Source: Posidonia oceanica
Taxonomy: Eukaryota > Streptophyta > Magnoliopsida > Alismatales > Posidoniaceae
NCBI GenBank assembly: GCA_037176725.1
Contig: JAZBRS010000026.1
Location: 102,903,501 to 102,967,500 of the forward strand
Direction of reading: 5' to 3'
DNA: 64,000 nucleotides
Shown: positions 5,540-62,435 of the stretch, in pieces
How the letters are laid out: the number at the start of each line of letters is the position of its first letter
Position numbering within the stretch: the first letter of the stretch is position 1
Position numbers and translations under genes: made by a program
Notes under the pieces: model-generated
Told to the model about the DNA's origin: nothing
Database searches by the model: none
The model's input: the letters and a program-made list of their open reading frames with translations, nothing else

Positions 5540-5825
5540 CTTTGGCACCGTTTTGCGTGCCCACTTCGCTTTTGGCACCGTTTTGCGTACCCGCTTCGCT
5601 TTTGGCACCGTTTTGCATGCCCGCTTCGCTTTTGGCACCGTTTTTGCGTGCCCACTTCGCTTTTGGCACCGTTTTGCGTGCCCGCTTCGCTTTTGGCACC
5701 GTTTTGCGTGCCCGCTTCGCTTTTGGCACCGTTTTTGCATGCCTGCTTCACTTTTGGCACCGTTTTGCGTGCCCGCTTCGCTTTTGGCACCGTTTCGCGT
5801 GCCCGCTTTGTTTCTGGCATTGTTT
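5540..5825 (+). repeat. 30-bp minisatellite in 5' LTR of A, ~9 clean copies
   Basis: The tandem unit of about 30 bp contains TTTTGGCACCGTTTTGCGTG followed by CCCGCTTCGC. There are nine good copies and then about three decayed ones running to about 5890. The 3' LTR carries about 13 good copies, which accounts for nearly all of the 115-bp LTR length difference. Cys/Phe/Arg-rich ORFs in all frames across it are a by-product of the repeat. Confidence 0.85.
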
Positions 5826-5971
5826 TGCGTGCCGATCTTGTTTTCTTGCACCGTTTTGCACGCCGCTCTCGTTTCTCGCATTGTTTCGCGTGTTTTACGC
5901 CGTTTTCTCTTGCATGTTGCCTGCATTGCTTGGTTTTACCGTTGTTTTGCTTTTTGGCTTGCATTTGCATA

Positions 5972-6310
5972 TAGGGCAGTGATGCTTACTGCCTGGAGTT
6001 CTCATGAGCCCTGTTTCGCCCGGTTCGGAACACAGACAGCGTTGCTGAGCGTTTAGACTGCACGTTTACTTTCCTTGCATTGCATCCCACCACTTAGAGC
6101 ACACCTATGAGCATTCATTCAGGCATTCATTGGCATTTAGGCATTCAAATTTGCATTTCCCTGCGAATGCGAGCGTAAGCCTAGAAAGACCGATTCTCGG
6201 GCGTGTCGGGGGTGCCTAACACCTTCTCCGTGCGTAACAGGAGTCCTTGCCCAGTCTTTTGGCCCGCAATGACCATATCGCCCTTATCCTAGGCATGAGT
6301 CATCTCATTT
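5972..6310 (+). promoter_or_regulatory. Conserved LTR end block shared by A, B and (in part) X
   Basis: Two sub-blocks are kept between LTRs that are otherwise strongly diverged. The first (about 5972-6050) contains GGCAGTGATGCTTACTGCC, which can fold with a 6-bp stem, followed by a CGCCCGGTTCGGAACACAG motif. The second (about 6160-6310) contains GGGGGTGCCTAACACCTTC and GCGTAACAGGAGTCCTTG. Antisense counterparts are at 55144-55490 (B), and at 43894-43982 for the first sub-block (X). The position near the LTR end suggests R/U5 functions such as 3' processing or an RNA structure. This is inferred from conservation only. Confidence 0.55.
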
Positions 6311-6426
6311 GCATGTATTTGCATTTGTTTTCCTTTGCATTGCTTTGCTTTGCATTTCTTGCTTGGTTTTGCGTGTTAACTCACGCATTTCCCCCGGTTT
6401 TCCTTGTCTCCCGATAATAGACACAG

Positions 6427-6441
6427 TGGCGACTCTGATTT
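6427..6441 (+). other. Primer-site-like relic inside the LTR of A
   Basis: TGGCGACTCTGATTT preceded by ACACAG lies about 120 bp before the true LTR end. It resembles the real junction (CTACAG then TGGCGACTCC). The same relic is in the 3' LTR at about 28170, and a decayed form is in B's LTR near 55031-55050. It may mark an older LTR end. Confidence 0.5.
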
Positions 6442-6549
6442 GTCTTATCTTCCTCTTTTTCCCTCTATTTTAAGTGTTTTCGAGTTGAGCCCTCCTCCTC
6501 GGACCCTCGTCGCTAATAGTAAGTCTGATTCTGATTGGGATTACTACAG

Positions 6550-18183: not shown

Positions 18184-19386
18184 ATGGGCTTCCCCACTCT
18201 GTTGACTCCAGCGTACTGCTCGGAGACCTTGCAAGAATGGATCGGCGAGCTTACCCAAGAAGATTGCGAAAAGCTGCGCCTGTGGGGCATCTCAAACAAG
18301 CTGCTGAAGGCTGCTGATGTGGAAGTAAGCCGCCATCTTCTGTGTGCCGCCGCAAGATTCTGGAAACCGGCGCACCACGTCTTTCGCTTCGGCAGAACTG
18401 AGCTTACACCCACACTGGAAGAAGTGCGTCGGATCTGCGGTTTCTCTAAGATCATGGGGCTGCCTATCTTCATGAGGTGTGATGGATATCTCGCGGTCCT
18501 GAGCCAGCTGACTGGCCTCCCTACTCGAAGCTGCCAGCAGAGACTGATCTGCACCAGTGGACCTGAACCTATGCTCCGCCTAGCGCACTTTGATGATGTC
18601 ATGAAGAAGCGCGTCGAACTCGGAGATGAGCTGTGGCTCCGAGGGTTTGTCATCCGCTTCCTGGGCGAGCTGATCTTTACTCATGGCCGACTGACAGTGG
18701 CCATTGAGGTTGCAGAAATAGCACTTGCTGTGGTGACCCGGTAGATAGACCTGGCACCAGTTGTTCTGGCAGAAACATACCACAGGCTGGACCGCATCTC
18801 ACATCGCTGCCGCCACTTCCATGGCTGCGGGGCACTCATACAAGTCTGGCTAGCTGCACACTTAGAAATGAACCTTCTGCGCCCCCAGGTGCATGCTTTT
18901 GAAGCCTACTGCAGCAGCGGCCGTGCCAAGACAGTCAAGAGCGTCAAAGAAGAATACGAAAGGCTATCAGCACTGACTGACGACGCTGTAACTTGGCATA
19001 TCATCCCCTCTGTAGCCGAGCCATTCACTGTCTTTTTCAGCGCGCGTGACACGCGGCTGATTGTGCTGTCAGGATTCACGGCGGGTGTGGAATACCACCC
19101 TATCAGGGTTATGCGCCAGTTTGGCTTCCAGTAGGGCGCCTTTGTTGACAGCACAGCGCCCGAGCTTCTTCAAGCATACCCTCTCAGCACGACCGCCCCA
19201 ACCAAAAAGCTGGCTGATCTGATGCAGCATGGGGTACGATCAACAGACATTGCAGCAGTGAGAGGTGTAGGATGCGCCCCTGAGTATGTGACTGAGGTCC
19301 AAGAGCTCTGGCCCGTCGATGAAATCCCGCCAGGCGGCCCCCTATTCCCCGACTCCAGGCAGTCAAAGAAGGCCCGAACCAGCTAG
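18184..19386 (+). pseudogene. Extra ORF of element A, plant-mobile-domain-like (broken by two TAG)
   Basis: This is one reading frame of 401 codons, MGFPTLLT to a TAG at 19384, interrupted by TAG at 18742 and 19132. Residues about 55-85 (AARFWKP, then ELTPTLEEVRRICGF) resemble the core of the plant mobile domain and of related domains found in legume transposon proteins. The middle (LAETYHRLDRI, ALIQVWLAAHLEM) and end (SGFTAGVEYHPIRVMRQFGFQ region) fit the same family pattern, in which a Tyr/Trp-rich core is followed by a conserved N-P-x-x-x-x-R-Q-x-G segment. Function is unknown. Tat/Ogre elements are known to carry extra ORFs; Ogre ORF1 usually stands before gag, while this one follows integrase on the same strand. 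Both stops can come from CAG. Assignment to the domain family is by eye. Confidence 0.65.
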
Positions 19387-22261: not shown

Positions 22262-25200
22262 TGTTGACACCCCATCTTGACAGGCTCGGATCATTTGGGA
22301 CCTTCTGGTGACTTCTGGATCTAAACCTAGGTCAAAACAACCCCCAACCCTCTTCATCTCACCCTTCAAAACAAGCCTAACTTGACCTAAGCCTACACCC
22401 TCTTCCCAAGCCCAAAACCTGCCCAAAAACCATAGGAAAACCCATCAACCCCTACTTAGCAAACCTACCCAAACACTTAAAAACTTTCAGCCCAAAACCA
22501 TTCCCAAAAACCCTAGAAAACTTAGGTGAAACCACCCTTTTTCTACACCTCAAAATCCCTCCAAAACTTGCTCAAAATCAGACCAAAGCCCTAGAACCAA
22601 CACTAGAAATCCTAGGCTACACACTCCCCAATTTTCACCCCATTTCAAAACTTTTAAGCCTTCCTTTCACCTAAATTATCCTTTTCTCTCTCCTGGATTA
22701 TCCTTTTCTCTCTCCTCTCTCTCTCCTGATTATCCTCCCTCTTTTCATCCCCTTCTCTCTCTTTTTCTTGCCTGGCTGTGGGCCCCCTTTGTGCTTCTAT
22801 CTCTTCTCTATCTTATTTCTATTTTTACCTTATTTTTGGCATTTTCCCTGACTTTTAAAAAATTATTCTCCTCCAACTCATCTCTTTCCCCTTTATTCTT
22901 CCTTTTTTCCTTTTCTTCTCCTTTCTCTTTTCCTTTTTCTTTCTTTTGCTAAAATCCATAAAAACCCTTAAAAATCCCTAAAACTCTAAAACTAAAGGGA
23001 AACAAACCAGAATCCTAAGAAAAATAATTAAAAATATTAAACAAACAATTAAAAACCTAAACCTAACCAAATCTAGCTAAGATAGAAAGCTAGGAGTGTA
23101 ACCTAAAAAATACGAAATAACCAAAAGAAAATGCTATAAAATCAAGGAAAAAACTAAAATATAATCAAAACCAACCAAAAGTGAAAGCCCTATCAAAATA
23201 ATCTAAAAACAAACCCTAAGAAGAAGTAAAACTATTAAAAACACTAAGACAAATAATTAATGAAAAAACTTAACTTAACAAACCCAAGAAGAACAACTTA
23301 AGAACTTAATTAAAAAGAAAATGAGAAACAAATTAAAAAGATTTAAAGATACTTAATCAAACAAGAGAAACCTAACTAAAAAACATCAAGAGAACTTAAC
23401 AAACAAAAAATCAAAAGTGTAATTTAAAGAAGACCTAAGAAAAATCCTAAAAAGACTAAAATCAAAAGCCCAAAACTCACTCTAATTAATCTAAAAATAA
23501 ATCTTAAAAAATCCTAATTAACATCCCAAGTACTTAACAAGAAAAGCATAATTAAAAAATAACTTAAAAGGCTTAACAAACACTTAATCAAAATGGAAAA
23601 CAAATTAAAAACAAAGAAAACCCTTAAAATCCTAATCAAACCCAAAACCCCTCTAAAACCAGAATTAATCAACTAAAAACAGCCATTAAAAATTTAATCA
23701 AGATCCTAACTTACAGCACAATCATTCTAATATTTTTACTTATTTTTATTTTATTTTTACTTAATTTATTTTCTCCTCTCTTTCCTTTCCATTTCTCTTT
23801 TCTTCCTATTTTTCTTCCTTTCCTCTTCTCCTGCTGGGCCCAGTCCAGCCCGTCCACCCTTTCCTTCTTTCTTTTTTTCTTTTTTCCTCAGCTTGCGGCC
23901 CGGCCCGCCTTCCTCCTTCTTCCTCTTCCTTCTTCTTCCTCTGCATTTTCCTTCTCCTCTCGCGAGCCTACAGCACTCCTTCTTTTTTGAATTCGATTCT
24001 CCCTCTCCATCCAATCCAGCAACAGCTCGCCGCTTCTCTCTTGGCTCTCAGCGGATTTTCCGGCGAGGCATTTACTGCCTGTCTCCCTCGCCGCTTGTCT
24101 CCCTCAGTTGCAGTTCTCGGCGCCGGTGGAATTCGAATTCCACAGCTCGCGCCCAGCAGCCTCAAGCCCTCTGATAAAGCCAGCCCTTCAGCCCCTCTTC
24201 CAATGCCTTTTCGCCATCCGAGAGAGAGAGCCAGAGAAATCCAGAGAATTCCCAAGCAAACTTCTCCTTCTTCTCCCTCTGAATTCAGCAGCCTTCCCCT
24301 TCTTTTACCTCAGAAACCAAGTCCGTTCCAGCCTCCAATTCTCTTCCATTTTCATCCCCTAAATCCACCCAGAGTCCCAGCATTCCTCCTCCACCATTTC
24401 CCGGCCTTTCCACCCCTGAAAACACCTTCAATTCACCTGAACTCCACCGCAGAAACTAACTGCAACCCAACACCACCTCTCCTGAAATTGCCTTCACCAC
24501 AGACCTCCACTCCATCCCAAACCTTCCCCAGTCACTCGCCTGAACTCCACCTCCCCAAGCCACCCAGCCTTCAGCCTTCTCCCCCCTCACAGGCCGAACC
24601 TTTCACCACAAACACTTACCGTCCCCTCTGACCAGAAAACCATCCAATCTGCAAACCCACTCCACAGCCCACCAAGACCCAATTCAACCACCCAGAATCG
24701 ACCACCAGACCTCCAGCAATCTTCCAGAAGATCCCATCCGGCCTGAGGAGCAGCGGACACTCCCCCCGGTCTTCGGCTGCCTCTGTGAACCCAAGATCAG
24801 CCGAATCTTCCTCCGGTCTTCGCAGCAGCCTTCCAAGCATCCAGGAAGCTCCGGAGGGTCGCTCTGAGGAGATCCAAGCCGTCCCGAGCCATTGAAGCCC
24901 CCTCCTCTCACCGGACGAGCTCCACCGGCGACCTCTGAAACCGCCTGCGTCGGGAGGACTTCTCAGCCACGGAAACAGGTAAACTCTTATTCCTTTAGCA
25001 TAATCTTCCTCTCCTCTTGCTTTTCCCCCCCTTAGAATAGGTTTTTCTTCGCTCCTGCGCCGAGTCAACTCCGGCCAGAGTCGTCTTCTCCGGCGAGCCT
25101 CTCCGTGCGTCCCTCCGTTCCGGTCAGCAGAACAGCGTTCCAGCAGCACCCTCCGGTCCGCACGAGTCTCAGGAACACGCTCCGGCCTTCAGATCGCCGC

Positions 25201-28200
25201 GTCGTCGCGCCGATCGCCCGGGGTGCACTTCTGAAGCTCTGCAGATCTCCGGTGGCTTCTCCAGCTCGCTCCAGCCCGCGTCGAGCTCCGCCGAGTGTCG
25301 TCCGAGCACCGTCTGGACCTGGAGATGCTTCCCCGCCGGTCTGCGCTGCCCCAACATCCCTGTGCCGGCGTTCATGGACGCTGGCAGCTTGCTGCTACAG
25401 TGTCCATGGCCGCCGGCCTTTGCACTGTTCATTTATTTTTCTCTTATCTAAGTCTTTTGGTAAATATTGCATTTCTGGTCTGGGTTCTTGTTATTTTGCA
25501 TTCCAGTCCTTTATTTGATTTAATCTGCTGATTTCTGAACTGAAACTATATTAAATTGCATGAAATGTTTGTGATTTTCCTTATTTGCATGCTGATCCAT
25601 TTACTGTGCTTTTCTTCAGTAATAAGTTAGACTTTGGCCCTCCTGCTTTTGATTTTTGCACTTAAGTCCTGCAGTAGTTCAATTTAATTTAACGCATGAA
25701 TTTTGCCATAGGAAATTGCATTCTGGGTCCTCTCTGTTTTCAGTATCTGCATCCTGATCCTCTGTCCTGTAGAACTTAGGTTTTATTTTTCATTTTTGCT
25801 TGTTGCATTGCATTTCTCCCCCTCTGTTTTCTGATTTTTGCATGTAGGTCCTCTTCTAATGCACAGTAATCATTTTAATGCATATTTAGCTTATTAAATT
25901 GCATTTTTGACCTTGCATATTTTAAAAATTGCATGTCAGTCCTCTGTCTGCCCCTTTAATGCATATTTTGCTTCAAAAATTGCATTTTTGATCCTGCATG
26001 ATTTGAAAATTACACATAGGTCCTCTGCATGCTTATAAAAATCATTTAAATGCATATTTTGCTTCAAAAATTGCATTTTAGCCCCCCATGTTTGGAAAAT
26101 TGCATGCAAATCCCCCATTTGCATTCCCAGACTACTTAGGACCCTGTTTTTCTGGAAAAATTGCATTTTAGACCCTAATGATTTCAAAATTGCATTCCAA
26201 TCTGCCACATGTTTTCAAAACTTGTCCTGATGCATACCCCTCTTGGAAAATTGCATTTTAAACCCTGCCTTTTGTAAAATTGCATGCAGACCCTCCTTTT
26301 TTAAATTCCTTGCATGAAAGTCCCAAACCCTTCAAAACCTTTGCATTTAGACCCCCATCCTTTCAAAATTGCATTTTAACCCCCAATTTTTCTGAAAAAT
26401 CACCCTTAAGTATTTTCTTGTATTCTGCATGCATTGCATTCATGCATTCTAGCTTTTTGCATCCTTTGCACACACTTAAAGCTTTATTAGCTCCCATTTA
26501 CATGGGAGGACCCGTCTGCACACCCCTAGGACCTCCTGAACACTTAGATCTATTCTTCTCCTCGGTTCTGGCCCCTCTGCCTTGAAGCTGGGACATCTTC
26601 CAATCCGGCCATTGGATCTTCTCAAACAAGCTACCCAGACGACCCCGGCGAAGCGCTCTTCAGCATGGACAAGCAGATTTCAGATCAGGCTCCAGATTTT
26701 CCAGGTACATCCTCCTAAACCCCTGCACAGCATTCATTTGCATACCATTTGCATTGCATGCATCGTTTTCGCTTTTTGTTTCCTCGATCATGTAGAATAG
26801 GACTTCCTCTTCTTATCTATCAATCTCGTTCCTCTTTTCGCGTATTCTCAAGTGTTTCGTGTCGTGTTTCCCCTGGATTCACCACTTATTGCGACTTTCT
26901 TCTCCTTTTCCACGATCCGATCGCGCCGCGAGCTTTGGGCAGCGTGCGAGACACATCGTGGGGCGGCTTAGTGGGAAACAGTCACAAAGCGGTGGTAATC
27001 CCTCCACTTGCTTATTCTCCCCATTGTAGGTCTTCACACCTACTCTGCGTGGCCCTTAAACAGTGTCTGTTCTCACACACGCACTGTTTGCCTCCCCTTT
27101 CACTTTTCTCAACCTCTCTCTTTGCATTTGCATCTGCATGGTTTTGCCGAGGTTTTATTCCGTCTTTGGCACCATTTTGCGAGCCCGCTTCGCTTTTGGC
27201 ACCGTTTTGCATGTCCGCTTTGTTTTTGGCACCGTTTTGCGTGCCTGCTTCGCTTTTGGCACCGTTTTTGCGTGCCCGTTTCGCTTTTGACACCGTTTTG
27301 CGTGCCTGCTTCGCTTTTGGCATCGTTTTGCGTGTCCGCTTTGTTTTTGGCACCGTTTTGCGTGCCTGCTTCGCTTTTGGCACCGTTTTTGCGTGCCTGC
27401 TTCGCTTTTGGCACCGTTTTGCGTGCCCGCTTTGTTTTTGGCACCGTTTTGAGTGCCCGCTTCGCTTTTGGCACCGTTTTGCGTGCCCGCTTTGTTTTTG
27501 GCACCGTTTTGCCTGCCCGCTTCGCTTTTGGCACCGTTTCGCGTGCCCGCTTTGTTTCTAGCATTGTTTTGCGTGCCGATCTTGTTTTCTTGCACCGTTT
27601 TGTGCGCCGCTCTCGTTTCTCGCATTGTTTCGCGTGTTTTACGTCGTTTTCTCTTGCATGTCGCCTGCATTGCTTGGTTTTACCGTTGTTTTGCTTTTTC
27701 GCTTGCATTTGCATATAGGGCAGTGATGCTTACTGCCTGGAGTTCTCACGAGCCCGGTTTCGCCCGGTTCGGAACACAGACAGCGTTGCTGAGCGTTTAG
27801 ACTGCACGTTTACTTTCCTTGCATTGCATCCCACCACTTAGAGCACACCTATGAGCATTCATTCAGGCATTCATTGGCATTTAGGCATTCAAAATTGCAT
27901 TTCCCTGCGTATGCGAGCGTAAGCCTAGAAAGACCGTTTCTCGGGCGTGTCGGGGGTGCCTAACACCTTCCCCGTGCGTAACAGGAGTCCTTGCCCAGTC
28001 TTTTGGCCCGCAATGACCATATCGCCCTTATCCTAGGCATGAGTCATCTCATTTGCATGTATTTGCATTTGTTTTCCTTTGCATTGCTTTGCTTTGCATT
28101 TCTTGCTTGGTTTTGCATGTTAACTCACGCATTTCCCCCGGTTTTCCTTGTCTCCCGATAATAGACACGGTGGCGACTCTGATTTGTCTTATCTTCCTCT

Positions 28201-28292
28201 TTTTCCCTCTATTTTAAGTGTTTTCGAGTTTAGCCCTCCTCCTCGGACCCTCGCCACTAATAGTAAGCCTGATTTTGATTGGGATTACTACA
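22262..28292 (+). repeat. 3' LTR of element A (6031 bp)
   Basis: Same ends as the 5' LTR (TGTTGACA ... TTACTACA). It is followed at once by the GACAG target copy. Differences from the 5' LTR are scattered single bases, mostly transitions, plus a longer 30-bp minisatellite. At the end of its pyrimidine/C-rich block it has CAGGTAAACTC near 24976 where the 5' LTR has CAAGTAAACTC. Confidence 0.95.
27168..27565 (+). repeat. 30-bp minisatellite in 3' LTR of A, ~13 copies
   Basis: Same unit and place as 5540-5825 but with about four more copies. The extra copies alternate between TTCGCTTTTGGC and TTTGTTTTTGGC endings. Copy-number change may have arisen during reverse transcription or after insertion. 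Confidence 0.85.
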
Positions 28293-28297
28293 GACAG
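28293..28297. repeat. Target-site duplication of element A (right copy)
   Basis: GACAG, identical to 628-632. Confidence 0.95.
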
Positions 28298-37356: not shown

Positions 37357-37440
37357 AGTCGCCTGTTTTACAGGCAGCCTGACAAGTCGCCGGTTTCACC
37401 AGCGGCTCACTGAGGCGCCTCCTGAACTAGCGGTTGTGCC
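37357..37440 (-). repeat. 28-bp palindromic triplet in leader of C
   Basis: Three consecutive 28-bp units starting at 37357, 37385 and 37413. Each begins AGTCGCC or AGGCGCC and, about 10 bases on, carries a roughly complementary GGCAGCC, GCGGCT or GCGGTT. Confidence 0.75.
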
Positions 37441-38141: not shown

Positions 38142-38225
38142 AGGCGCCTGCTTAAACGACGTCTATTTCAGTCGCCCTCTGGAGGAGCGGCTCAAACAGA
38201 CGCTGCTAGTACTGGCGGCTCGCAG
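38142..38225 (-). repeat. 28-bp palindromic triplet near the primer site of C
   Basis: Three consecutive 28-bp units starting at 38142, 38170 and 38198, with left arms AGGCGCC, AGTCGCC and AGACGCT and right arms ACGTCT, AGCGGCT and GGCGGCT. Confidence 0.75.
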
Positions 38226-39111: not shown

Positions 39112-39119
39112 TATTTATA
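39112..39119 (-). promoter_or_regulatory. TATA box of C's LTR
   Basis: Minus-strand CTATAAATAG in a GC-rich setting, about 870 bp from the LTR start. The form and place fit a pol II promoter driving transcription toward gag. Confidence 0.65.
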
Positions 39120-39485: not shown

Positions 39486-39639
39486 AGTCGCCTATCTAGT
39501 TGACGTCCACATGGGTCGCCTTCTGAGATGGCTTCTGACTGAGCCGCCTCCTCGGCAGGCTACTAGTGTAGTCGGCTGGGAACTGTCGCCACCTTAGGTA
39601 GCTACTATGTGAGTCGCCTCCCCAAGTGGCTACTAACTT
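39486..39639 (-). repeat. 28-bp palindromic units in LTR of C
   Basis: Three units in tandem at 39486, 39514 and 39542 (left arms AGTCGCC, GGTCGCC, AGCCGCC). A degenerate stretch follows, then another unit at 39612. Single related units lie at about 39182, 39263, 39350 and 39418. Confidence 0.65.
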
Positions 39640-41074: not shown

Positions 41075-41131
41075 GTAATACGCCTCACACTGCAGCGTAC
41101 AATGTTGGATGCAGATTTTGCTGCATTCAAC
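41075..41131 (-). repeat. Palindromic pair next to gag start of M
   Basis: The second unit (41104-41131) has arms GTTGGATGC and GCATTCAAC. The first unit is weaker. It stands immediately upstream of the gag start, the same place as the last pair in P. Confidence 0.7.
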
Positions 41132-41487: not shown

Positions 41488-41543
41488 GTTAGACGCGGGA
41501 TCTACTACATACAATGTTAAACGCAGATATCCCAACGTCTAAC
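41488..41543 (-). repeat. Palindromic pair in leader of M
   Basis: Two 28-bp units. Outer arms GTTAGACGC and ACGTCTAAC also pair with each other across the dimer. Confidence 0.7.
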
Positions 41544-42242: not shown

Positions 42243-42298
42243 GTTGGCCGCGTATTCTGGAGCGTCCAATGTTGGACGTAGCAGATCGCGCGTATAAC
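42243..42298 (-). repeat. Palindromic pair in leader of M, close to the primer site
   Basis: Two 28-bp units. First arms GTTGGCCGC and GCGTCCAAT; second GTTGGACGT and GCGTATAAC. Confidence 0.65.
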
Positions 42299-43359: not shown

Positions 43360-43415
43360 GTTATACGTTGAAAATTCAGTGCATAACGTTATCCACTAAA
43401 AAATCAGCGTATAAC
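43360..43415 (-). repeat. Palindromic pair in LTR of M
   Basis: Two 28-bp units with arms GTTATACGT/TGCATAAC and GTTATCCAC/GCGTATAAC. The arms differ from the GTTGGACGC type but still largely pair. Confidence 0.7.
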
Positions 43416-43590: not shown

Positions 43591-43674
43591 GTTAGACGCT
43601 GGAAAACCAGCGGCCAACGTTAGCTGCTGGAAAATCAGCGGCCAACGTTATAAGCTGGGAATCCAGCGTATAAC
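43591..43674 (-). repeat. Palindromic triplet in LTR of M
   Basis: Three exact 28-bp units at 43591, 43619 and 43647. The third has GTTATAAGCTGG pairing with CCAGCGTATAAC at 11 of 12 positions around a 4-base loop. Confidence 0.8.
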
Positions 43675-44353: not shown

Positions 44354-44410
44354 TGTTGGACGCAACAATTACCTGCATCCTATGTTGGACGCAGGACAGA
44401 CAGCGTCCAA
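44354..44410 (-). repeat. Palindromic pair 1 in X
   Basis: GTTGGACGC/GCATCCTAT, then GTTGGACGC/GCGTCCAAT, in 29 and 28 bp. Confidence 0.75.
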
Positions 44411-44601
44411 TACTTAAAGAAGGAAAACCTGCAGAAACCATGCAATTTTGGAAAACAAGCATTCTAGATGTATGAATGCGATGCAAATGCAATAAAGCAG
44501 TAGAAGACATGTATATCATGCAAAGCAATCAAGGTAAACAGCCAAAGGAAAGATTTAATGGCATGGTGCAAGCATGGAACATGATTTAAGCAAAGCAGAG
44601 T

Positions 44602-44659
44602 GTTGGACGCTAGGGTACACAGCGTCCAACACAGGATGCTGGTGCACTCTGCGTCCAAC
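44602..44659 (-). repeat. Palindromic pair 2 in X
   Basis: First unit has perfect arms GTTGGACGC and GCGTCCAAC in 29 bp. Second unit ACAGGATGC/GCGTCCAAC, 29 bp. Confidence 0.8.
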
Positions 44660-44832
44660 AAAGGGGCAGACTGAAGCATAAAGAAATGCATGCAAACTGA
44701 TAGAGAGAACATTAAGGCATACATTCAAGTTGTTTTGAATGGGCTAGGGTTAAGCATACATACATGGATCACATAAAAATCCAAAAAGAAAAGCATTTAC
44801 AAAGCATACATAAGGAAAGACACAACCAGTGT

Positions 44833-44890
44833 GTAGGACGCAAGCACCACCTGCATCCTATGTAGGACGCCAGCAATACCTGCGTCCAAC
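44833..44890 (-). repeat. Palindromic pair 3 in X
   Basis: Two 29-bp units, GTAGGACGC/GCATCCTAT and GTAGGACGC/GCGTCCAAC. Confidence 0.75.
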
Positions 44891-45061
44891 ACAAAGGAAG
44901 GCAAGGACATGGAGAAATCTGCATAAACCCCTGATAAAAAACCATAAAACTTGACAACAGTTGTTATAAGGGCTAAGCACGATCATGCAAGCACAGATCA
45001 AGCAAACACAAGAGATAATAGCTTCATGCAAGTATTAAGGCATAAGTAGCTAAGCAGAAAC

Positions 45062-45119
45062 ATAGGACGCAGAGTACATCTACGTCCAACATAGGATGCA
45101 GAGTGTATCTGCGTTCAAC
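45062..45119 (-). repeat. Palindromic pair 4 in X
   Basis: Two 29-bp units, ATAGGACGC/ACGTCCAAC and ATAGGATGC/GCGTTCAAC. Confidence 0.75.
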
Positions 45120-45443
45120 ACAGAAAAGAGGCATATCAAGCTGCAAGGAAGAACTGAGCTCAGAGACCACTTAAATATGCATGCAAGCTATTGAAAGCGG
45201 GCTAAACCAAGGCATGCAACATAGATCAAGCAAGTATCCTAAAATAGAACATTTTAAGAGGCATGTATAGGGAAATAAGGGAGCATACACTCATGTAAAC
45301 CAACATGCAACCTTAAAAGGGAACTTGCAACCTTGAAAATAGTAGCCATAGAGCCCAATCATCACTACACATGCATGGAGCAAGTATTCAACTCAAAAGA
45401 AAGCAACACTCAAGCATGGAAGCATGTGTAAACAAGCAGAGCA

Positions 45444-45501
45444 ATAGGATGCTAGACACACCAGCGTCCAACATAGGACACAGTATGTTCCAGCGTCCAA
45501 C
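45444..45501 (-). repeat. Palindromic pair 5 in X
   Basis: Two 29-bp units, ATAGGATGC/GCGTCCAAC and ATAGGACAC/GCGTCCAAC. Confidence 0.75.
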
Positions 45502-45692
45502 AAAGGGAAACAGCATGATGATCTAAAGCAAGAAACATAGATCCAAACTAGGATAAAAACTTGATACTAAACATACCATGGCATCTGTAAGCATAAAAGG
45601 AAGCATGTAACATAAACTCACAGAGAAGCAACCAAACCATAGCAACATGGAAGCAAAAATGATGCAAAGTAAAATAAAAGACCTACAGGGTT

Positions 45693-45749
45693 GTTGGACG
45701 CTGCCTCAGGGCATGTCCAACGTTGGATGCACCAAGGTGTGCATCCAAC
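45693..45749 (-). repeat. Palindromic pair 6 in X, with paired change
   Basis: The second unit (45722-45749) has perfect arms GTTGGATGC and GCATCCAAC. Relative to the usual arms both sides changed and still pair. Confidence 0.8.
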
Positions 45750-46575
45750 AGGTCAGGAAGTTTCTCGGCCAAGATCAGTGGCCAAATCAACCAAAAATCT
45801 CAAAAAAACTAGCTAGGAAGCTAGAGTGAATGACGACGAGCATGTCCATGTGCTCGGTGCCAGAAATGGGTGGGTGGATTGCTCCACACACCTCCTCCTC
45901 GCAGCTGGAAAGCCAAGGCGGGGGGATGTGTGTGCTGTGCTAAGACACGTAAAAACTATCTTATCATGCTACCACATGCATGTGCAAGCTAGGAGTGAAG
46001 AAAGCCTACCTGGTCGTGGCTTGCAGAGGAGTGTTTGCACTCGGTCGGCAACACGGAGAATGGTGGCAGCTGAACTCCGACGAGCACTCTGGGCGCAAGG
46101 GAAGGCTGGGGAGCTTGGCTGAAGGTCGGGGAGTGTTCGTGGGAGCTCACTCAAGGTCGCACAAGCTCTGGTTTTTCTCACAAATGGGTGTGGTGATCTG
46201 CAGATGGCGGTGAAGTGTTGGTTTTGTTGGGGTTCCTCTAGTAATGGCAGCAGCGTTGCAGAGGCTTTGGCAGGGCTTGGCAGGGGTCGTGGTGAGTGGG
46301 GAGGCCACGAGGAATGTCAGGCGAGTAAGTGTGGTGTGTCAGGAGGTCACGAAAGTCTTGGTGGTGGGAGGACGCAAGCGGCCATGACAGTGAGGGCGGT
46401 GAGAGCTGAAGACGTGTCAGCGGAGGTAGGGACGTCGTGGCAGCGAGTAAGTGGGCTTGGGGCCTAGCAGGTGGCCGTAGTGAGGTGAGGGGACGGATAG
46501 TAAGTGAGGTTTGGGCGGGAGGAAGGACGGAAGCGGTGAGCCAGAGGTGGCCGTTGCCGCTGCAACTCCCGACTC

Positions 46576-46633
46576 GTTGGACGCTAGCACAGAGCACGTT
46601 GAACGTTGGACGCTACCAATGCCAGCGTCCAAC
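46576..46633 (-). repeat. Palindromic pair 7 in X
   Basis: The second unit has GTTGGACGC and GCGTCCAAC in 29 bp; the first has a changed right arm (ACGTTGAAC). Confidence 0.8.
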
Positions 46634-46833: not shown

Positions 46834-49258
46834 GATACTATACAAGTGTGTTTTCATTTGCAGCAGGATTCGCGGGCGGTGTCGGTTGGTGAACGCGCGA
46901 GATCCAAGTTTTATGAGGAAAAGCAGACACTGTGTATCTTTTCCTCGGCTTTAAATTTCTGTAGTTTTTCCTTATTCGCACCTCACATTTCTTCTTCTTC
47001 TTCTTTCTCTTCTCTCTTCTCTCTCTCTCTCTCTCCCTCCAGTAACTCTTTCGCACCCCTCCCCTCCTCCACTCCCCTTCTCCTCCCCTGCTTCCCTCCT
47101 CCCTCCCCCCCAATCTCTCTCTGCAACCTCCTCTCCCTCTCGTTCCCCTCTCCCCCACACTCCACTCTCCACTCTCCCTCCCCACCATCTCCCCTCCCTT
47201 CCCTTCCCATCTCCTCCCCCCTCTCTCCCCCTCCCCTACATCTCTCCCTCTCCCCCCTCTCGGTCGTGCCCTAATCCCTGGCTGGCGCGAGCTCCACCTC
47301 CTCCCCTCACCCACCTCTTCCTCGCCGATCTCCCCTCCTCCTCCTCCTCCCTTCCCTCTCCACTTCCCCTTCCCCCCCATTTCCTCTCCCTCTCATTTTT
47401 CCCCCTTTTTTTGGTTCGGCAATGGCCACTGGTGGCGATGCGCGGTGGCATGCAACGACGGTGCGCCGGACTCCGATCTTCATCCCGGTGGAGTGGCGAG
47501 CCCGAGTGCAGCATGTGGGACTTGGAGTCGGCGATGGGTCGCTGAGTCGCGAGGTGGATCGCCGGAGAACAGTGATTTTCTCACTATTCCCAAGGTACAC
47601 ATCCCACCTCCTTGCTCCAAATAGCTAAAAAATTATAGAATTAAGCTCCTTGCTATGAATTGAATGTTATGGTAGTGGTTTGGTAATTTTTAGAGAATTA
47701 TATGGATTTTTGGCCGTATTTATTTGGCTTCTATTGAGATTATGCATGTACTATGGTTTTATGGGTTTTCTGTGAGCTATGATCCTCGGATTGGCATGAT
47801 TCTTGTGTGGTTGTGTTCCTTATTGAATTCTGGTCATTTCGGTATATAGCATGTATTTGTTGGTGTTTTGTGTAGGTTTTGGGATCCAAAACGGATCCCC
47901 CCTTTGTTCCGCTACAGACTCTAGTTCGGCATGCCGAAATGGGTTCGGCATATCGAAACTGGGTCTGAGATGTTTCTCAGCCCCATTTTGTGGGGCCGGG
48001 GGGGGCTTGCTTAAGGTTTTGATTATGCTTTTAATTGTGTTTAACCATGCTTATGCCTATGATGGTTTGGTGGCTTGTTAGAGATTCTTAGTAATGATTT
48101 TTGGATAATTATGGAAATGTTTTCAAAGAGGTTTTCTGAGGAAAAATATAATTGCTTTGCAAAAGATTTGCCGAGGTTTTTCTATGGCCGAAACCTAGGA
48201 GTTGTGTGGTCTAGACCCAGGGATGCGACGGCACTCCAAGTGTGTTGCACACTTCGCCTAGGCTGAGGTTTGGGGTTCGGGGTGCCGCCCGTACCTAGCA
48301 GTATCATGGCAGTGGACTTGGGAGGTATGATACTCTTACGTAGCTAGGCGTTATACCCTAATCGCTACGAACACTAGGACTCGCCTTTTTGTTTTGGGGT
48401 GCTGGCTAAGCCTAGGGGTGAGGAGCCTCTAGTGGTCAGAGCATTGAGTTTGTGGACGTCGATTGTTGCGTGCCTTGTGGTCTTGCCCCGATTGTGGACA
48501 GCTTTCCCAGGTGGGGATCGCTTTTTGAGGCTTCTCTGGTGTGAGAATGTCGTGACGGGCACGCTCCCCCACAGGACAGGTGTCCGTGGCTGTGCAGTGC
48601 GTGCGGGGGTGAGTCCCTGACTACTACTTGAGGCCAGCTCGATTGTTGGGCACCAGGCAATGCGACTAGTTGTTTCTTTTGTACCCGTTTGGGCTGTGCT
48701 TGGTTTGTTTTGGTAGTATTGGGCCTAGAGCTTTGCCTGTTTTGTGGCTTGTTGGCTTTTGCCAAGTTTTGGCCACATTAGGCCTAGAGTTTTCCGCCTT
48801 TTTGCGGCATTGTGTTTTCGACTGAGTTTTGGGCCAGTGGGCCCCACTTTGAGAAATATGGGATTGTTTTACATCTGGTTTCCCAGTTTAGCTTATTGGG
48901 CTTTGGGAATGGTGTTTTATTATTATAAAATGATTATGTGGGCCTGGATTTGGGGTTTTGACTAGTTTGACGCCTTATTGTGGTTTTATGCTGGTTGTCT
49001 CATGATTTTTGCGGGGTGTGTGCTGGGTGACAATTTCTAGTTAGTCACGTGTCTTTTATTGTGTTTTTAGTTGCAAGTGCAGATGGTTAGCTGGTTTGGG
49101 ATCATAGAGCATATAGTCGGAGTCACGTAGCTGTCCACTGCAGGTTCCTGGCACAGATTCTTGTTGTTTGGTCCATAGATAATTGTAAATGTTATAATTA
49201 TTTAAGTTTTAATTTGTTTGGATTTTGGAATGTGTTGGTAGTGACTCGGGTCGTTACA
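46834..49258 (+). mobile_element. Element T: LTR of a chromovirus-like element (start not in place)
   Basis: The sequence ends GGTCGTTACA at 49258, immediately before a Met-type primer site, so it is the 5' LTR of the gag at 49433. Its start is not present: 46834 abuts X, which probably inserted into this LTR. It holds a long pyrimidine-rich tract (46990-47400), a perfect 14-bp palindrome TTCGGCATGCCGAA at 47925-47938, and T/G-rich sequence to the end. No gene was recognised; the ORF at 46741-47274 is low-complexity. Confidence 0.7.
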
Positions 49259-50075: not shown

Positions 50076-50235
50076 TTGTAGATACCCCGTTTTGGCACTC
50101 CATTCATGGTAGTGTAGTCTGTTGCATTAGGTAACCTCTAGAAGCTCTTTGCCCAGCTCAAGTACTCTCATCTAACTTATTGACACTTGTCCCCGTGATT
50201 GAGAGGCCAGAATTGGCAAGTTTGCATTTGAGTGT

Positions 50236-50293
50236 GTTGGACGCTGGATACCCTAGCGTCCAACGTTGGACGCTGTGAATCATGGCGTCCAAC
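50236..50293 (+). repeat. Palindromic pair 1 in LTR of P (2 x 29 bp)
   Basis: Two adjoining 29-bp units, both with arms GTTGGACGC and GCGTCCAAC around 11 bases. The first can extend to a 10-bp stem. Confidence 0.88.
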
Positions 50294-50466
50294 AACCTGA
50301 TTTTCTGTTTCCCCAAACTTGCCATATTTGGTTGAAATCAAATTTCGTGCTTTGCCTCCACTAAAGGTTCTTTGACCAGTCAAGGCCTTAATTGGCTTTA
50401 ATGATCACTAATCAGCCACCTATTGAGGAATATTCTTTGATCCTGGCATCTTTGCCTCGGAGGGTC

Positions 50467-50524
50467 GTTGGACGCTATGAGTTCCAGCGTCCAACGTTGG
50501 ACGCTGTAACGGTCAGCGTCCAAC
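50467..50524 (+). repeat. Palindromic pair 2 in LTR of P (2 x 29 bp)
   Basis: Both units have perfect arms. The second pairs over 11 bp (GTTGGACGCTG with CAGCGTCCAAC, 7-base loop). It stands about 65 bp upstream of the TATA box. Confidence 0.88.
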
Positions 50525-50587
50525 ACTTTTGAAACAGGAAAGTTGCTGACTTGGCCTTTGTGTCCTTATTTGTTCCTCCCCTGCTTC

Positions 50588-50594
50588 TATAAAA
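50588..50594 (+). promoter_or_regulatory. TATA box of P's LTR
   Basis: CTTCTATAAAAGTAGGGG, shared with M. Transcription would start about 30 bp downstream, making 50076-50615 roughly U3. Confidence 0.7.
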
Positions 50595-51338
50595 GTAGGG
50601 GTACCCCCACTAGGTTAGAGGACGGATTTAGGACGGATGGAGGATGGATTTAGGACAGATTGAGAAGGGATTTTTGAGGATTTTCTTGAGAGAGAAACAC
50701 AATTTTAGAAGAATTATTGAGAGCAAGTAGAAAGTGTTTTAAGCCTGAATCTCGAGAGAAGTTATGTGGAGAAAGAGTTTTGAGAGAGCTTGAGTTCTCC
50801 TCTGTCGTCAGTGACATCATGTCGACACCTCTTGCATTCCGTGCATAGATAAAAATGGGGCTCTCTTTAGTTTTCCTTTTCTTTTCATATCTTATGTTTA
50901 AATTCGTAGTATAGCAAAGCATTTTAATTTCATATATTGTTGTAGCTAGGCATAGTCATACTTAGTTGCAACCGGAGGGATAAAACCCCTCGGGTAAGTA
51001 TTCCTCCTTTCATTTTTTGTTAATTTTCAATTTGCTTTGAATCATATACTACACTTTATTAATCTACATCTTTAAAATCTGTTTTGCAAGGAAAAGAAGA
51101 AACTCACCAAACACGGGCACCCTTGGGCAACGCAGGCGTTGTCCCAAGATAGCAGAACCCACAACCATATCACATCTCCCAAGGCGTCTTGAGGGCCAAC
51201 GAAAGCAAACCAAGAGTGGCGATCACACCAATTCTGTCACCTGTGGAGTGACGGAGTTGGATATAAAAAAGGGACAATGAGGAAGCACCAAATAGACACA
51301 ACAAGCTTCTCCTAACCAAAAACCCCATATCCACAGAT

Positions 51339-51358
51339 TGGCGATCATGGTGGGGTGG
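51339..51358 (+). other. Primer-binding site of P
   Basis: TGGCGATCATGGTGGGGTGG, three bases after the LTR. Same site as in M and similar to C. Confidence 0.65.
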
Positions 51359-51569
51359 CTAAAAGTGCCCCCGTGTTAGGTGAGTATTCTCTTCTTCTTC
51401 GTACTTTTCTTTTGCAACTCTTATTTAATTTTTGCTGAATTTTTCGGGGTCGTGGCGAAATTCCTTCTAGTGTTTTGAGGCACCACGACCCTCTTAGTAT
51501 TTGTTCTTTATTTATGCACTTAAAAACATGCTTCTATCTCTTATTTAAATAAGTTTGTTCTGTTAGTAC

Positions 51570-51627
51570 GTTAAAAGTTGTGCTAGGCAGTGTCCAACAT
51601 AGGACGCAGTCTATTCCATCGTCTTAC
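51570..51627 (+). repeat. Palindromic pair in leader of P (decayed)
   Basis: Two 29-bp units, GTTAAAAGT/GTGTCCAAC and ATAGGACGC/TCGTCTTAC. Confidence 0.6.
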
Positions 51628-51805
51628 ACCTCTAGCCAGTTTTCTGTTTTTCCCTGCAATTTCTTCTGTTAGGTTTTTATATGTTGAAAAATGCATGCAA
51701 CCACCCCTTTCTTTTGTTCTGATTCTCGGGAATAAAGGGGTGTTTGACTAAAAAAAAAATTTCTCTTGTTTTAGTTTTCTGAAAAAAAATATCTCCTGTT
51801 TGTGT

Positions 51806-51863
51806 ATTGGACGCTAATATGCAATGCGTCTTACATAAAACGCCACCATTTGTTGTGTCTTAC
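51806..51863 (+). repeat. Palindromic pair in leader of P
   Basis: Two 29-bp units, ATTGGACGC/GCGTCTTAC and ATAAAACGC/GTGTCTTAC. Confidence 0.65.
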
Positions 51864-52576
51864 ATATCTGGACAGGATTCATTCTGTTGTTAAAATCTTT
51901 CTTTGTTTTCTTTTTATAATTGACCCAAGGAACGAGGTGTGAGGTGATTAGCTCTGCCGTAGGGACCAGAGCCTTAATATTTGGGTGCTTTTCAAAAATC
52001 CAAATAAAAATCGAGTTTTCCGTGTGACTTGTATGGCCATTGATTGGGAACTAATTTGATTGTGTCTTTTCTTGGATTACACAAAATAACCACTTAAATC
52101 CTGAGCACCTCTGTTGCAAAGGACTTAAGAGAGGTGTTTGTGTTGTCACTTGCTTTCACAAGGGGCACTCTTCTTTCCCTTGCTCTGTGTGAAAGTAAGT
52201 TAGAATCCCAAGTCTAGATTTATATTCCTTCCCCCCCTTTTGGTGGTTTGTTTATCTTGATTATTATTGTGTTAATACACAAGAGACCCGATCAATTCTG
52301 AGTACGCTGGGCTCTACGTCTACAAGGTAGGGACCTAAGTGTATTCAGGTTCCCCAAAGATTCTCAGGAGTTGAGATAGGGGCAGTACCAAAGAAGAGAA
52401 ATATTTTGTCCTGTTTGTGAAGATCCATAGACAACCCACGAAGGCAAGCCATACCCAAGCCTTAAGGAACCCTGAGAGTCACGCAGGTTTAAAACACTAA
52501 TAACAAAGTGAAATTCAAAAATCAAAACTTTAATCGTTGTTTGAAAGTGTTTCTGTACAGCTCTCTGTTACAGGGT

Positions 52577-52633
52577 GTTGGACGCTATATCTATCTGCGT
52601 CCTACGTTGGACGCAGCCTGGAGTGCGCCCAAC
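52577..52633 (+). repeat. Palindromic pair in leader of P
   Basis: GTTGGACGC/GCGTCCTAC (29 bp) and GTTGGACGC/GCGCCCAAC (28 bp). Confidence 0.75.
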
Positions 52634-52859
52634 ACATTGTTTGTTTATTCCTTTTATTGTTTGGTTATTTTGTGGAATTATTGAATGATGTAGGATGAAT
52701 GTTTGAACTGGGGTTGTAAATAGGTCATTTGAGCTTTATTTTTGAGTAATTTTCTTTTCTTAGAAGCTTGTATTAGGCTATACAAGACCTTTTGTAACTC
52801 TTGTTTCTTTTCTTTCTTTTGTCTACCAAAGTGTAAGCATTGTAATGTTTTCCCTTTAC

Positions 52860-52980
52860 TAGTAAAAAGAGAAAGAGAAAAGTCAAAAATCAGTAAAAAA
52901 AAAATGAGAGAAAAATCAGAAAAGGAAAAAGGAAAAAAGAAAAAAAAAGAGAAAAAAAAAGAAAAAAGAAGAAAGAAAGT
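52860..52980 (+). repeat. Purine tract in leader of P
   Basis: About 120 bp almost only A and G (AAAAAGAGAAAGAGAAAAG and so on). It stands about 430 bp before gag. Confidence 0.75.
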
Positions 52981-53089
52981 CCTTGTATGGTCCTGTGATC
53001 CTCAAGAACACAGGATTTTGTTCATCAAGAAATATCTATCAAAGTAGCATTTGGCAGTACAAAGATCAGTTCATCAAACAACTTGAAGT

Positions 53090-53147
53090 GTTGGACGCTA
53101 TAATTCAGAATGTCCAACATTGGACGCTATCATTATCAGCGTCCTAC
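53090..53147 (+). repeat. Palindromic pair in leader of P
   Basis: Two 29-bp units, GTTGGACGC/ATGTCCAAC and ATTGGACGC/GCGTCCTAC. Confidence 0.75.
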
Positions 53148-53309
53148 ACTGCCATTTTACTTCGGAGCCAATCAGCGCATTAGTTGCTTGCCATTTGCCA
53201 AGATTATATCTAAAAATACAATGAGTGTGTTCTAGGGAGTTGTGGTAGTCATTTCTGCATAGTCAAGCATTGATTGCATTGATTAAACCAACCAATAGAA
53301 GACAGGGGT

Positions 53310-53367
53310 GTTGGACGCTATCTAATATTGCGTCATACATTGGACGCTGCTAGTATCTGCGTCCTAC
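53310..53367 (+). repeat. Palindromic pair just before gag of P
   Basis: Two 29-bp units, GTTGGACGC/GCGTCATAC and ATTGGACGC/GCGTCCTAC, ending 47 bp before the gag ATG. Confidence 0.75.
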
Positions 53368-53414: not shown

Positions 53415-54864
53415 ATGTCTGAATCCGAAAGTAGCTACTCAGATACAGATAGCATGCCCGAGGAGGAACCCATCATGAGGTTATTCGATCCAACCAGTGG
53501 AGAGGAACTGGATCCCGACTCGGCCCAATATCAAGTATTGTGTCGCTTCCTTTACAGTGACAACAATCATCCCGGTTCGTCAAATCAAAGAGATGAGGAT
53601 CTCCATCAAGATCAACACCTCCTTGGTAAAAGACTACGAAGGTCTATTGCAAGCCACATCCCTGAGAATTGGTACCAGAGACAGCACGGAAATGCGCCGT
53701 CGGATACCCAACACCAGGGGCAAGGAAACGACTCACCAAGAGGATTCCGAGAAAGGTCCAATCCTTTTTTCGTTCAACAGCCACAGCAACGGCCTTATGG
53801 CAGAAGAGCCGAACCCTTATTCTCTAACCAACCAGAGCGGAGTCACCAGATCCCTCTTCAGCCGGGTATGAATGTTCAAGGTGACAATCGACAGCCGCAT
53901 GCTAATCAAGTATCAAATTCTCAAACTCATGGCGGGTTCAGCAATTTAGCAGAAATGAGGAAGGTCTTAAATTCCTTGGGGGTTTAGACACAAGCTCCCC
54001 CAACTTTTGACATGGGCCAATTTCCATCATTTCAGCTTCCTTCTGGCTTCAAGTATTCAAAGATGCCTAAGTTTGATGGGACCATCAACCCACAAACCCA
54101 CATCGTCCGGTTTCAAATGGAGTCAACTCCGTACTTCCATGACTTGGGCTTCATCATCCACCTTTTCTTCTATTCATTGGAAGGTGAACCCATGGATTGG
54201 TTCCTTACCCTCTCCGGAGACGACCTCAGCAGCTTCAATAAGATCAAGGAGTGTTTCTTGACCAAATATCAACACAAGATCGAGTCGAAGCCAACCTTTC
54301 ATAACTTGAGTAGGGAGACCATGAAGCCAGGTGAAGAATGGGTCACCTTTGCAAATAGATGGTGGGAGATGGCTGCCAAATCAGGCCTGGACATCCCGGA
54401 AAGACAAGTTATCCAGACATTGATTGCAAACGCTACTGGTCCAATGAAAAGGGGGTTGGCAAATGCCTATTGCCCTTCTGTGACTGCACTCTACGAGGTA
54501 GCTGCTTCTGTGAAGGAAAATATGCATAAATTTCAAAAGATGGAAGGCGATACTGAGTCCATTCATCAAGTTGCGAAGTAACAAGATTCTCCTCTTCAAG
54601 ATTACCGGCAGAATGGCAACCACTCTGGAAAAGATGGCAACGCCAGGGGCAACTACCATCATACAGCTCCACAATAGCAGTCCAAGAGACCAAAGCGCAC
54701 AAGCTATCCTCCTATCCTAGTCACGCTGATGAACATGTTCACAGAAATGATAGAGGCCCGAGCAATCGACCTCCCGCCTTGAAGACCTGAAGGGGTGAAC
54801 TGCGACAGAAGCAAATATTGCCAGTACCACAAGAGACGTGGGCACAATTTAGAAGACTACTGGG
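53415..54864 (+). pseudogene. Gag fragment of element P (four in-frame stops, cut by B)
   Basis: One frame from MSESESSYSDTDS. An acidic N-terminus is followed by a Gln/Arg/Pro-rich part (residues about 60-185), then a gag core (FPSFQLPSGFKYSKMPKFDG, HLFFYSLEGEPMDWFLTLS, FLTKYQHKI, MKRGLANAYCPSV) and a knuckle C-x2-H-x4-H-x4 in which the last Cys reads Tyr (YCQYHKRRGHNLEDYW). Stops lie at 53985 TAG, 54579 TAA, 54675 TAG and 54780 TGA; all fit CAG, CAA or CGA decay, and Cys to Tyr fits G-to-A. B's LTR begins right after the knuckle. M's gag is the closest relative in the window; C's gag is more distant. Confidence 0.85.
54860..54864. repeat. Expected target-site copy of B
   Basis: CTGGG precedes B's LTR end. 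The matching copy is not in the window, because B runs off the right edge. Confidence 0.4.
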
Positions 54865-61852: not shown

Positions 61853-61929
61853 GATGCTCGGGTGATGATGAAATGCAAATGCCATGCAACAGAATGCTAT
61901 TACACTACGACGAAAGGGTGATAAGTTAA

Positions 61930-62310
61930 CGGACCTATCGTCGGATAGTTAGGGAGTATCGGCCCTCTGAGGAGTTGACGGACTCATCACCGAATAGTTA
62001 GGGCTATCAGCCCGATGAGGAGTTAACGGACTAATCACCGGATAGTTAGGGCTATCAACCTGGATGAGGAGTTAACGGACTCATCACCGGATAGTTAGGG
62101 CTATCAACCCGATGAGGAGTTAGCGGACTCATCACTGGATAGTTAGGACTATCAGCCCGATGAGGAGTTAACAGACTCATCACCAGATAGTTAGGGCTAT
62201 CAGCTCGATGAGGAGTTAACGGACTCATCACCGGATAGTTAGGGCTATCAGCCCGAATGAGGAGTTAATGGACTCTTCGCCAGATAATTAGGGCAATCAG
62301 CCCGAATGAG
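61930..62310 (-). repeat. 47-bp tandem array in B, ~8 copies
   Basis: Units contain GGATAGTTAGGGCTATCAGC, CCGATGAGGAG and TTAACGGACTCATCACC. The inverted pair GATAG/CTATC is kept. It stands where A has its 71- and 28-bp arrays. Confidence 0.85.
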
Positions 62311-62435
62311 GGTGGAAAGGGGGTGGGGATACCGAACCAGAAGGTACGGCAGAGGTCCAGAGACGCTCCCACGACAGTTGGGGATGTTAGCCCGATGCAG
62401 ATGGAAATGGGATACCATAGGGCAGCAAAAAGATG

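Follow-up and report, generated by a model that had tools for sequence, protein, structure and literature searches.

Palindromic boxes repeated within a retrotransposon are known from the LTRs of Sireviruses (Ty1/copia), whose 'repeated motif' (RM) boxes are dyad palindromes that differ between families, number at least eight per element, lie mostly in the LTR upstream of the TATA box, are rich in CpG and have further copies outside the LTR; in the part of the source available to us, 12 of the 13 RMs tabulated carry a CGG-CCG core, and the boxes are absent from the other Ty1/copia elements compared (PMC2829016). An earlier note on the DNA studied here, a 64-kb stretch from Posidonia oceanica (the window), had described paired palindromes and knew of no named feature of this kind, a statement that the Sirevirus boxes contradict. 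In the window, a half-site is repeated in units of near-fixed length, the units abut as dimers, and the resulting modules lie near the promoter, retain CpG and recur in four elements (P, Q, R and S). As far as the available description of RM boxes goes, the two systems share a repeated palindromic box with dyad symmetry and element-specific letters, a copy number of at least eight per element (here 14 units in P, 11 in Q and 14 in R), a place upstream of TATA in the LTR (here in P, Q and S) and CpG richness (here 1.15 in P, 1.37 in Q and a weaker 0.73 in R, as observed/expected ratios rather than a formal CpG-island call). They differ in that the CGG-CCG core is absent here, the half-sites being GTTGGACGC in P and R and GTTATACGC in Q; in that the present elements look Ty3-type and carry units of 28-29 bp in dimers (with one trimer, in Q); and in that the extra copies lie in the leader before a gag-like ORF, not before an envelope gene. 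RM boxes are the closest known counterpart, and the present modules look like a Ty3-type variant of them with a dimer form and leader copies.

Retroviral leaders carry paired 5′ stem-loop hairpins for dimerisation and packaging, and paired stem-loops could form in the 5′ leader here too, but here copies also lie upstream of TATA and the arms lack covariation of the RNA type. A functional parallel only is offered by VANDALs, which are DNA transposons. Their noncoding target repeats are read by VANC anti-silencing proteins through short family-specific motifs that change together within a family (PMC10398659); the VANDAL reader is self-encoded, and the available part of that source makes no mention of palindromic dimers. 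In the window, a change of motif by family may show in unit length, which differs between P and Q, and in the half-site of S, which is different, but the arms of Q are mixed. Repeat arrays, palindromic in some cases, occur in the cis-regulatory regions of several TE families (PMC10760457), and both cases share the notion of palindromic repeats as markers of LTR control regions, although fixed-length dimers and leader copies are not described in the accessible portion of that paper. Elements of the Retand lineage (Tat clade) have tandem arrays between pol and the 3′ LTR, and their antisense protein TRP28 is predicted as a possible DNA binder (PMC11963269); element S may share the Tat clade, but palindromic dimers in LTR or leader are not mentioned in as much of that text as was available. 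Among the matches listed in a literature search covering titles and the starts of abstracts, with most subscription journals outside its coverage, none named palindrome dimers in Ty3 or Tat elements. That elements which look Ty3-type carry dimers of palindromes in comparable positions, the leader included, each with half-sites particular to the element, suggests a wider design in plant LTR elements.

Results and Discussion

Dimeric palindromes in the LTR and leader of element P

Element P starts at 50077 with TGTAGATACC, has a TATAAA box at 50588-50593 (+) and, near 51340, a stretch that looks like a primer site when aligned P, Q and S are inspected by eye. Its 5′ side is the part in view, and the end of the LTR is placed by inference. 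The ORF at 53415 gave no Pfam match, so that its 'gag' label is likewise inferred. All seven modules that the earlier note had placed in P were located on the plus strand, two in the LTR upstream of TATA and five in the leader. Both LTR modules, module 1 (50236-50293) and module 2 (50467-50524), consist of two 29-bp units with all arms perfect. In the leader, module 3 (51570-51627) is decayed, and only its second unit was caught by the automatic scan; module 4 (51806-51863) is partly decayed; module 5 (52577-52633) has units of 29 and 28 bp; and module 6 (53090-53147) is followed by module 7 (53310-53367), whose end is 47 bp short of the ATG that opens the gag-like ORF. The dimer form was borne out, both units of each dimer abutting, as was unit length, which is 29 bp in 13/14 cases (the exception, at 52606, is 28 bp). 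No pattern match occurred beyond 53367, hence none in the gag-like ORF (53415-53987), in agreement with the claim that modules are confined to LTR and leader.

A search of the 64-kb window for the pattern GTTGGACGC-N11-GCGTCCAAC, allowing up to 3 mismatches, returned 19 matches against 0.01 expected, and none of 100 shuffles reached that number. Ten matches fell in P and nine in R (44355-46633), the latter absent from the earlier note. In total, 39 units (14 P, 11 Q, 14 R) were set in register, four of which the automatic scan had missed and which were placed by hand (P 51570, Q 41515, R 45119 and R 44659); in all three elements the units within each module abut. Counts throughout come from one copy each of four elements in one window, and units of one dimer share ancestry.

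The earlier note's description of arms that are kept while the 11 inner bases vary freely was accurate only in part. Among the P arms, module 51570 has 4/9 and 6/9 arm pairs, and module 51806 has 6/9 in both units. The inner bases do vary, but the dyad consensus reaches inwards (TG...A adjoining the arms), the loops themselves score as palindromic (self-palindrome score 82, against 8.2 +/- 14.5 for 300 shuffles of the loops) and sister loops within a dimer are alike (direct p 0.003, inverted p 0.006).

In place of the AAC read in the LTR modules of P, many right arms have TAC or TAT at their end (51806-53367, +; 44631-45501, -), which gives a T.T mismatch with the left arm in 12/39 units (five in the leader of P, six in R and one in Q); these arms are perhaps a second site type. 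P itself appears to be inserted into the gag-like region of a neighbouring element, whose apparent LTR (47925-47957, +) holds two TTCGGCAT-type palindromes 19 bp apart.

Related modules in three neighbouring elements

Element Q, on the minus strand from 43893, is homologous to P, with blastn aligning the two in six pieces, three at 76-85% identity (leader, LTR end and LTR start) and three at 65-69%. Its modules, all on the minus strand, occupy the places of P module 1 (43591-43674, three 28-bp units), module 2 (43360-43415, two 28-bp units with GTTAT-type sequence in all four arms), module 4 (42243-42298) and module 5 (41488-41543, second unit placed by hand) and, less surely, that of module 6 (41075-41131, close to the gag-like region and paired with P module 6 by one of two alignments); for P modules 3 and 7 no counterpart was found. 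Units measure 28 bp in 10/11 cases, a difference in length from P that is significant by Fisher's test (p 3.5e-5; 1.1e-4 on the 23 automatically found P and Q units). The arms are partly changed relative to P and are mixed, of GTTGG and GTTAT types, with GTTAT in both arms of 3/11 units.

Element R, on the minus strand from 46833, is interrupted by Q. By blastn the R slice matches element F at the LTR start and near the slice end, and element E1 near the slice end only. Against P there were 13 matches, all centred on modules, and the two elements are also briefly alike where the LTR begins. The P half-site forms seven dimers in R, on the minus strand and within about 2.5 kb of the LTR start: module 1 (46576-46633), some 200 bp inside that start, and modules 2 (45693-45749), 3 (45444-45501), 4 (45062-45119), 5 (44833-44890), 6 (44602-44659) and 7 (44355-44411), the first units of modules 4 and 6 being hand-placed. 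Unit length is 29 bp in 12/14 cases. A search like that used for P, Q and S found no TATA in the R slice.

Element S, on the minus strand from 39990, resembles P and Q at its start and has a similar layout. No blastn match to either was obtained at E 1e-4, and tentative blocks of alignment with them lie around the primer site and within the leader. Its LTR holds a cluster (39509-39634, -) upstream of a TATA at 39119, in which four units, delimited by eye, form two pairs with a step of 28 bp and a half-site of GGCGACT type; a further right half-site occurs at 39492, 28 bp beyond. Two pairs, their extents judged by eye, were seen in the leader on the same strand, one with a 28-bp step (38165-38221) and the other (37357-37409) near the place of P module 5 according to flanking blocks. 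GGCGACT has 17 copies in S with at most one mismatch (500 shuffles: mean 2.9, maximum 8) and eight exact copies, although the half-site was chosen after inspection of the sequence and is more fairly set against the commonest 7-mer of each of 200 shuffles, which had 3 to 5 copies. Seven pairs lie 27-29 bp apart (500 shuffles: mean 0.008, maximum 1) when one mismatch is allowed; only one such pair is formed by exact copies. Spacing inside the unit differs in S. The arrangement common to P, Q and S is thus one of LTR modules upstream of a TATAAA, with their other modules in the leader.

As to element class, the domains of S and E1 run from reverse transcriptase through an RNase-H-type domain to integrase zinc-binding, which is the Ty3 order; judged on these domains of S and E1, the modules sit in elements that look Ty3-type. 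In S, RVT_3 is followed by integrase H2C2 in one ORF. A second RNase H (aRH) between RH and INT marks the Tat clade (Ogre/Retand; PMC6317226), and the RNase-H-type domain before the integrase suggests that S may belong there. No relatives of the S reverse transcriptase were found in a viral-contig collection.

Conservation of arms, spacing and CpG

Within elements the arms are close to their own consensus, with mean identities of 0.88 in P (28 arms), 0.87 in R (28) and 0.79 in Q (22). Between P and Q, 128/180 arm letters agree over ten matched units (71%), while eight 60-bp flanks show 64-84% identity with 1 to 4 gaps each; matched modules are therefore no better kept than their flanks. The inner bases of matched units agree at 48/72 aligned positions (67%), against 64% for non-matching loops. 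The modules keep CpG that has been lost from their surroundings, observed/expected falling between modules to 0.39 in P, 0.46 in Q and 0.44 in R, the contrast being least clear in R.

DNA sequence or RNA structure

Arm covariation, one of the checks named in the earlier note, was not seen within units: when right arms were redealt within each element, 272 pairs stood against 267.1 (p 0.2), and at module level 265 against 260.3 (p 0.20). In 24 of the 28 P and R units, arms paired at 86.1% against 86.0%, with 266/500 shuffles as high. Given no excess over redealt arms, the arms match through one repeated half-site and not through compensating change in each stem. On the sense strand, arm mismatches comprised 28 G.U and 28 A.C among 351 cells; leaving out position 1, beside the junction CpG, gave 23 and 17, a bias towards G.U that is too slight to be of use. 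Pairing was highest between the outermost arms of a module (141/171 cells), followed by arms within a unit (272/351) and arms across the junction (129/180).

Further inwards, Watson-Crick pairs at positions 10-12 of P, Q and R were in excess (56 against 44.9, p 0.006; 54 against 42.8, p 0.007; within-family permutation). With G.U counted, in the same 24 P and R units, 166/500 shuffles were as high at positions 10-12 and 132/500 over the five inner pairs. These tests are mixed, so that an inner dyad is weakly supported. An RNA stem with compensatory change is accordingly not supported, given the lack of arm covariation, the equality of G.U and A.C and the mixed inner-pair tests.

Nine modules were folded as RNA (six of seven from P and three of five from Q), and eight were far stabler than shuffles (z -3.7 to -9.1, 0/200 as stable), the ninth, at 51802-51867, folding little better than shuffles (z -1.2, 27/200 as stable). 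Predicted topology varied, with two hairpins in some modules and one long hairpin in others.

Interpretation

Our preferred view is that the modules are dyad sites in the DNA, present in several copies, where a dimeric protein would recognise the sequence and affect the activity or silencing of the LTR, a reading to which we give about half of our belief, and in which the reader, its binding to DNA and its effect are alike putative. Each dimer would present four copies of the half-site in alternating orientation at fixed spacing; a sequence-specific protein, the host's or the element's own, would bind these as a dimer or tetramer; and LTR transcription, or its silencing, would be governed from the copies upstream of TATA and those in the leader. 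The repetition of the half-site, its near-fixed spacing and its position around the promoter suggest a protein that binds DNA as a dimer or tetramer, and the lack of within-unit covariation beyond the shared half-site is what one would predict if the sites are read by their letters. The half-site consensus is identical in P and R, which favours this reading, although P-R matches all centre on modules. Against it stand P-Q arms no better kept than flanks, a dyad made imperfect by T.T mismatches, the siting of leader modules downstream of the promoter, where a classical enhancer would not usually lie, the different inner spacing of S and the mixed arms of Q. Among the roles proposed in the earlier note, that of a functional site marked by a fixed-length dimer with matching arms holds up, with protein binding the best fit; RNA dimerisation or packaging lacks support, since the arms lack covariation, G.U and A.C mismatches are equally frequent and two P modules lie upstream of TATA. 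A concrete half-site can now serve as bait for a reader protein.

Were the modules instead to act in the transcript, near the 5′ end through the leader and near the 3′ end through U3, they could serve packaging, dimerisation or translation as stem-loops. The stability of eight of the nine folded modules, leader copies that stop shortly before the gag-like ORF and the small lean to G.U once position 1 is left out all point this way, but good folding is expected of any DNA palindrome, one module (51802-51867) folds near shuffle level, and topology is inconstant. As the arms show neither covariation nor more G.U than A.C overall, and the inner pairs of the 24 P and R units are not above shuffles when G.U is counted, we think such a role unlikely.

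Template switching within palindromes could maintain the likeness of arms without selection. Function might then be dispensed with altogether, a short palindrome having duplicated in tandem and spread within and between elements by recombination or by template switching that kept its arms alike. The resemblance of sister loops is as after tandem duplication, P and R have their modules and little else in common, as after transfer, and P-Q arms are kept no better than flanks. Passive spread accounts poorly, however, for CpG retained in modules and depleted around them, for unit lengths that stay near-constant while the eight P-Q flanks hold gaps, for module positions relative to TATA that are alike in P, Q and S, and for inner bases that have diverged to background in the P-Q comparison when the arms of each element remain close to its half-site; we rate it as improbable to about the same degree as the RNA role. 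Less credible again, and in our view a long shot, is that the modules are mainly hairpins or repeats feeding small RNAs and methylation, a handle for the host kept only through linkage to promoter function. LTR palindrome clusters of maize Sireviruses attract small RNAs (Bousios et al. 2016, as cited in PMC10760457 and PMC5311732), but near-exact half-sites and unit length would be left unexplained, and PMC10760457 states, in its available part, that no obvious peak of these structures is present in the Ty3 elements of maize.

A more specific form of the protein-site reading, which we hold to be rather doubtful, is that the dimers are self-recognition sites, each family encoding or enlisting a protein specific for the half-site that the family carries in U3 and leader, with site and reader changing together. 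If so, families in one genome would keep separate addresses, and the system would be an LTR-retrotransposon counterpart of VANC anti-silencing.

Other repeats in the window

A dimer scan of the window that made no assumption about arm sequence found 17 sites, of which P, Q and R account for 11 and the rest of the window for six, five shuffles giving 2 to 7; the six outside score 14 or 15, which is chance level, and no shuffle site exceeded 15. In the LTR regions of E1 and F the same kind of scan found isolated inverted repeats only, with no adjoining palindrome pairs. Two arrays were considered as equivalents of the modules and rejected, the 30-bp array of E1 and F and a 28-bp array near 20.7-21.7 kb, whose units did not surpass their shuffles in palindromic character (p 0.57 and 0.58 for the two). 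Beyond the window, the single-unit pattern occurred in one contig (L001) of the viral-contig collection, and a longer pattern had no match in a genome-contig collection. Insertion into palindromes, as treated in the available part of PMC6911290, is a different matter from the present modules.

E1 has direct repeats of about 6 kb (633-6549 and 22262-28293; 98% and 96% identity in two main pieces), which are long for LTRs and contain the 30-bp array. It also has an ORF (18184-18744) whose plant-mobile-domain and DUF7745 matches fall below curated cut-offs. An eight-copy tandem array of a 48-bp unit lies at 61924-62311, and this unit is more palindromic than shuffles (p 0.02).
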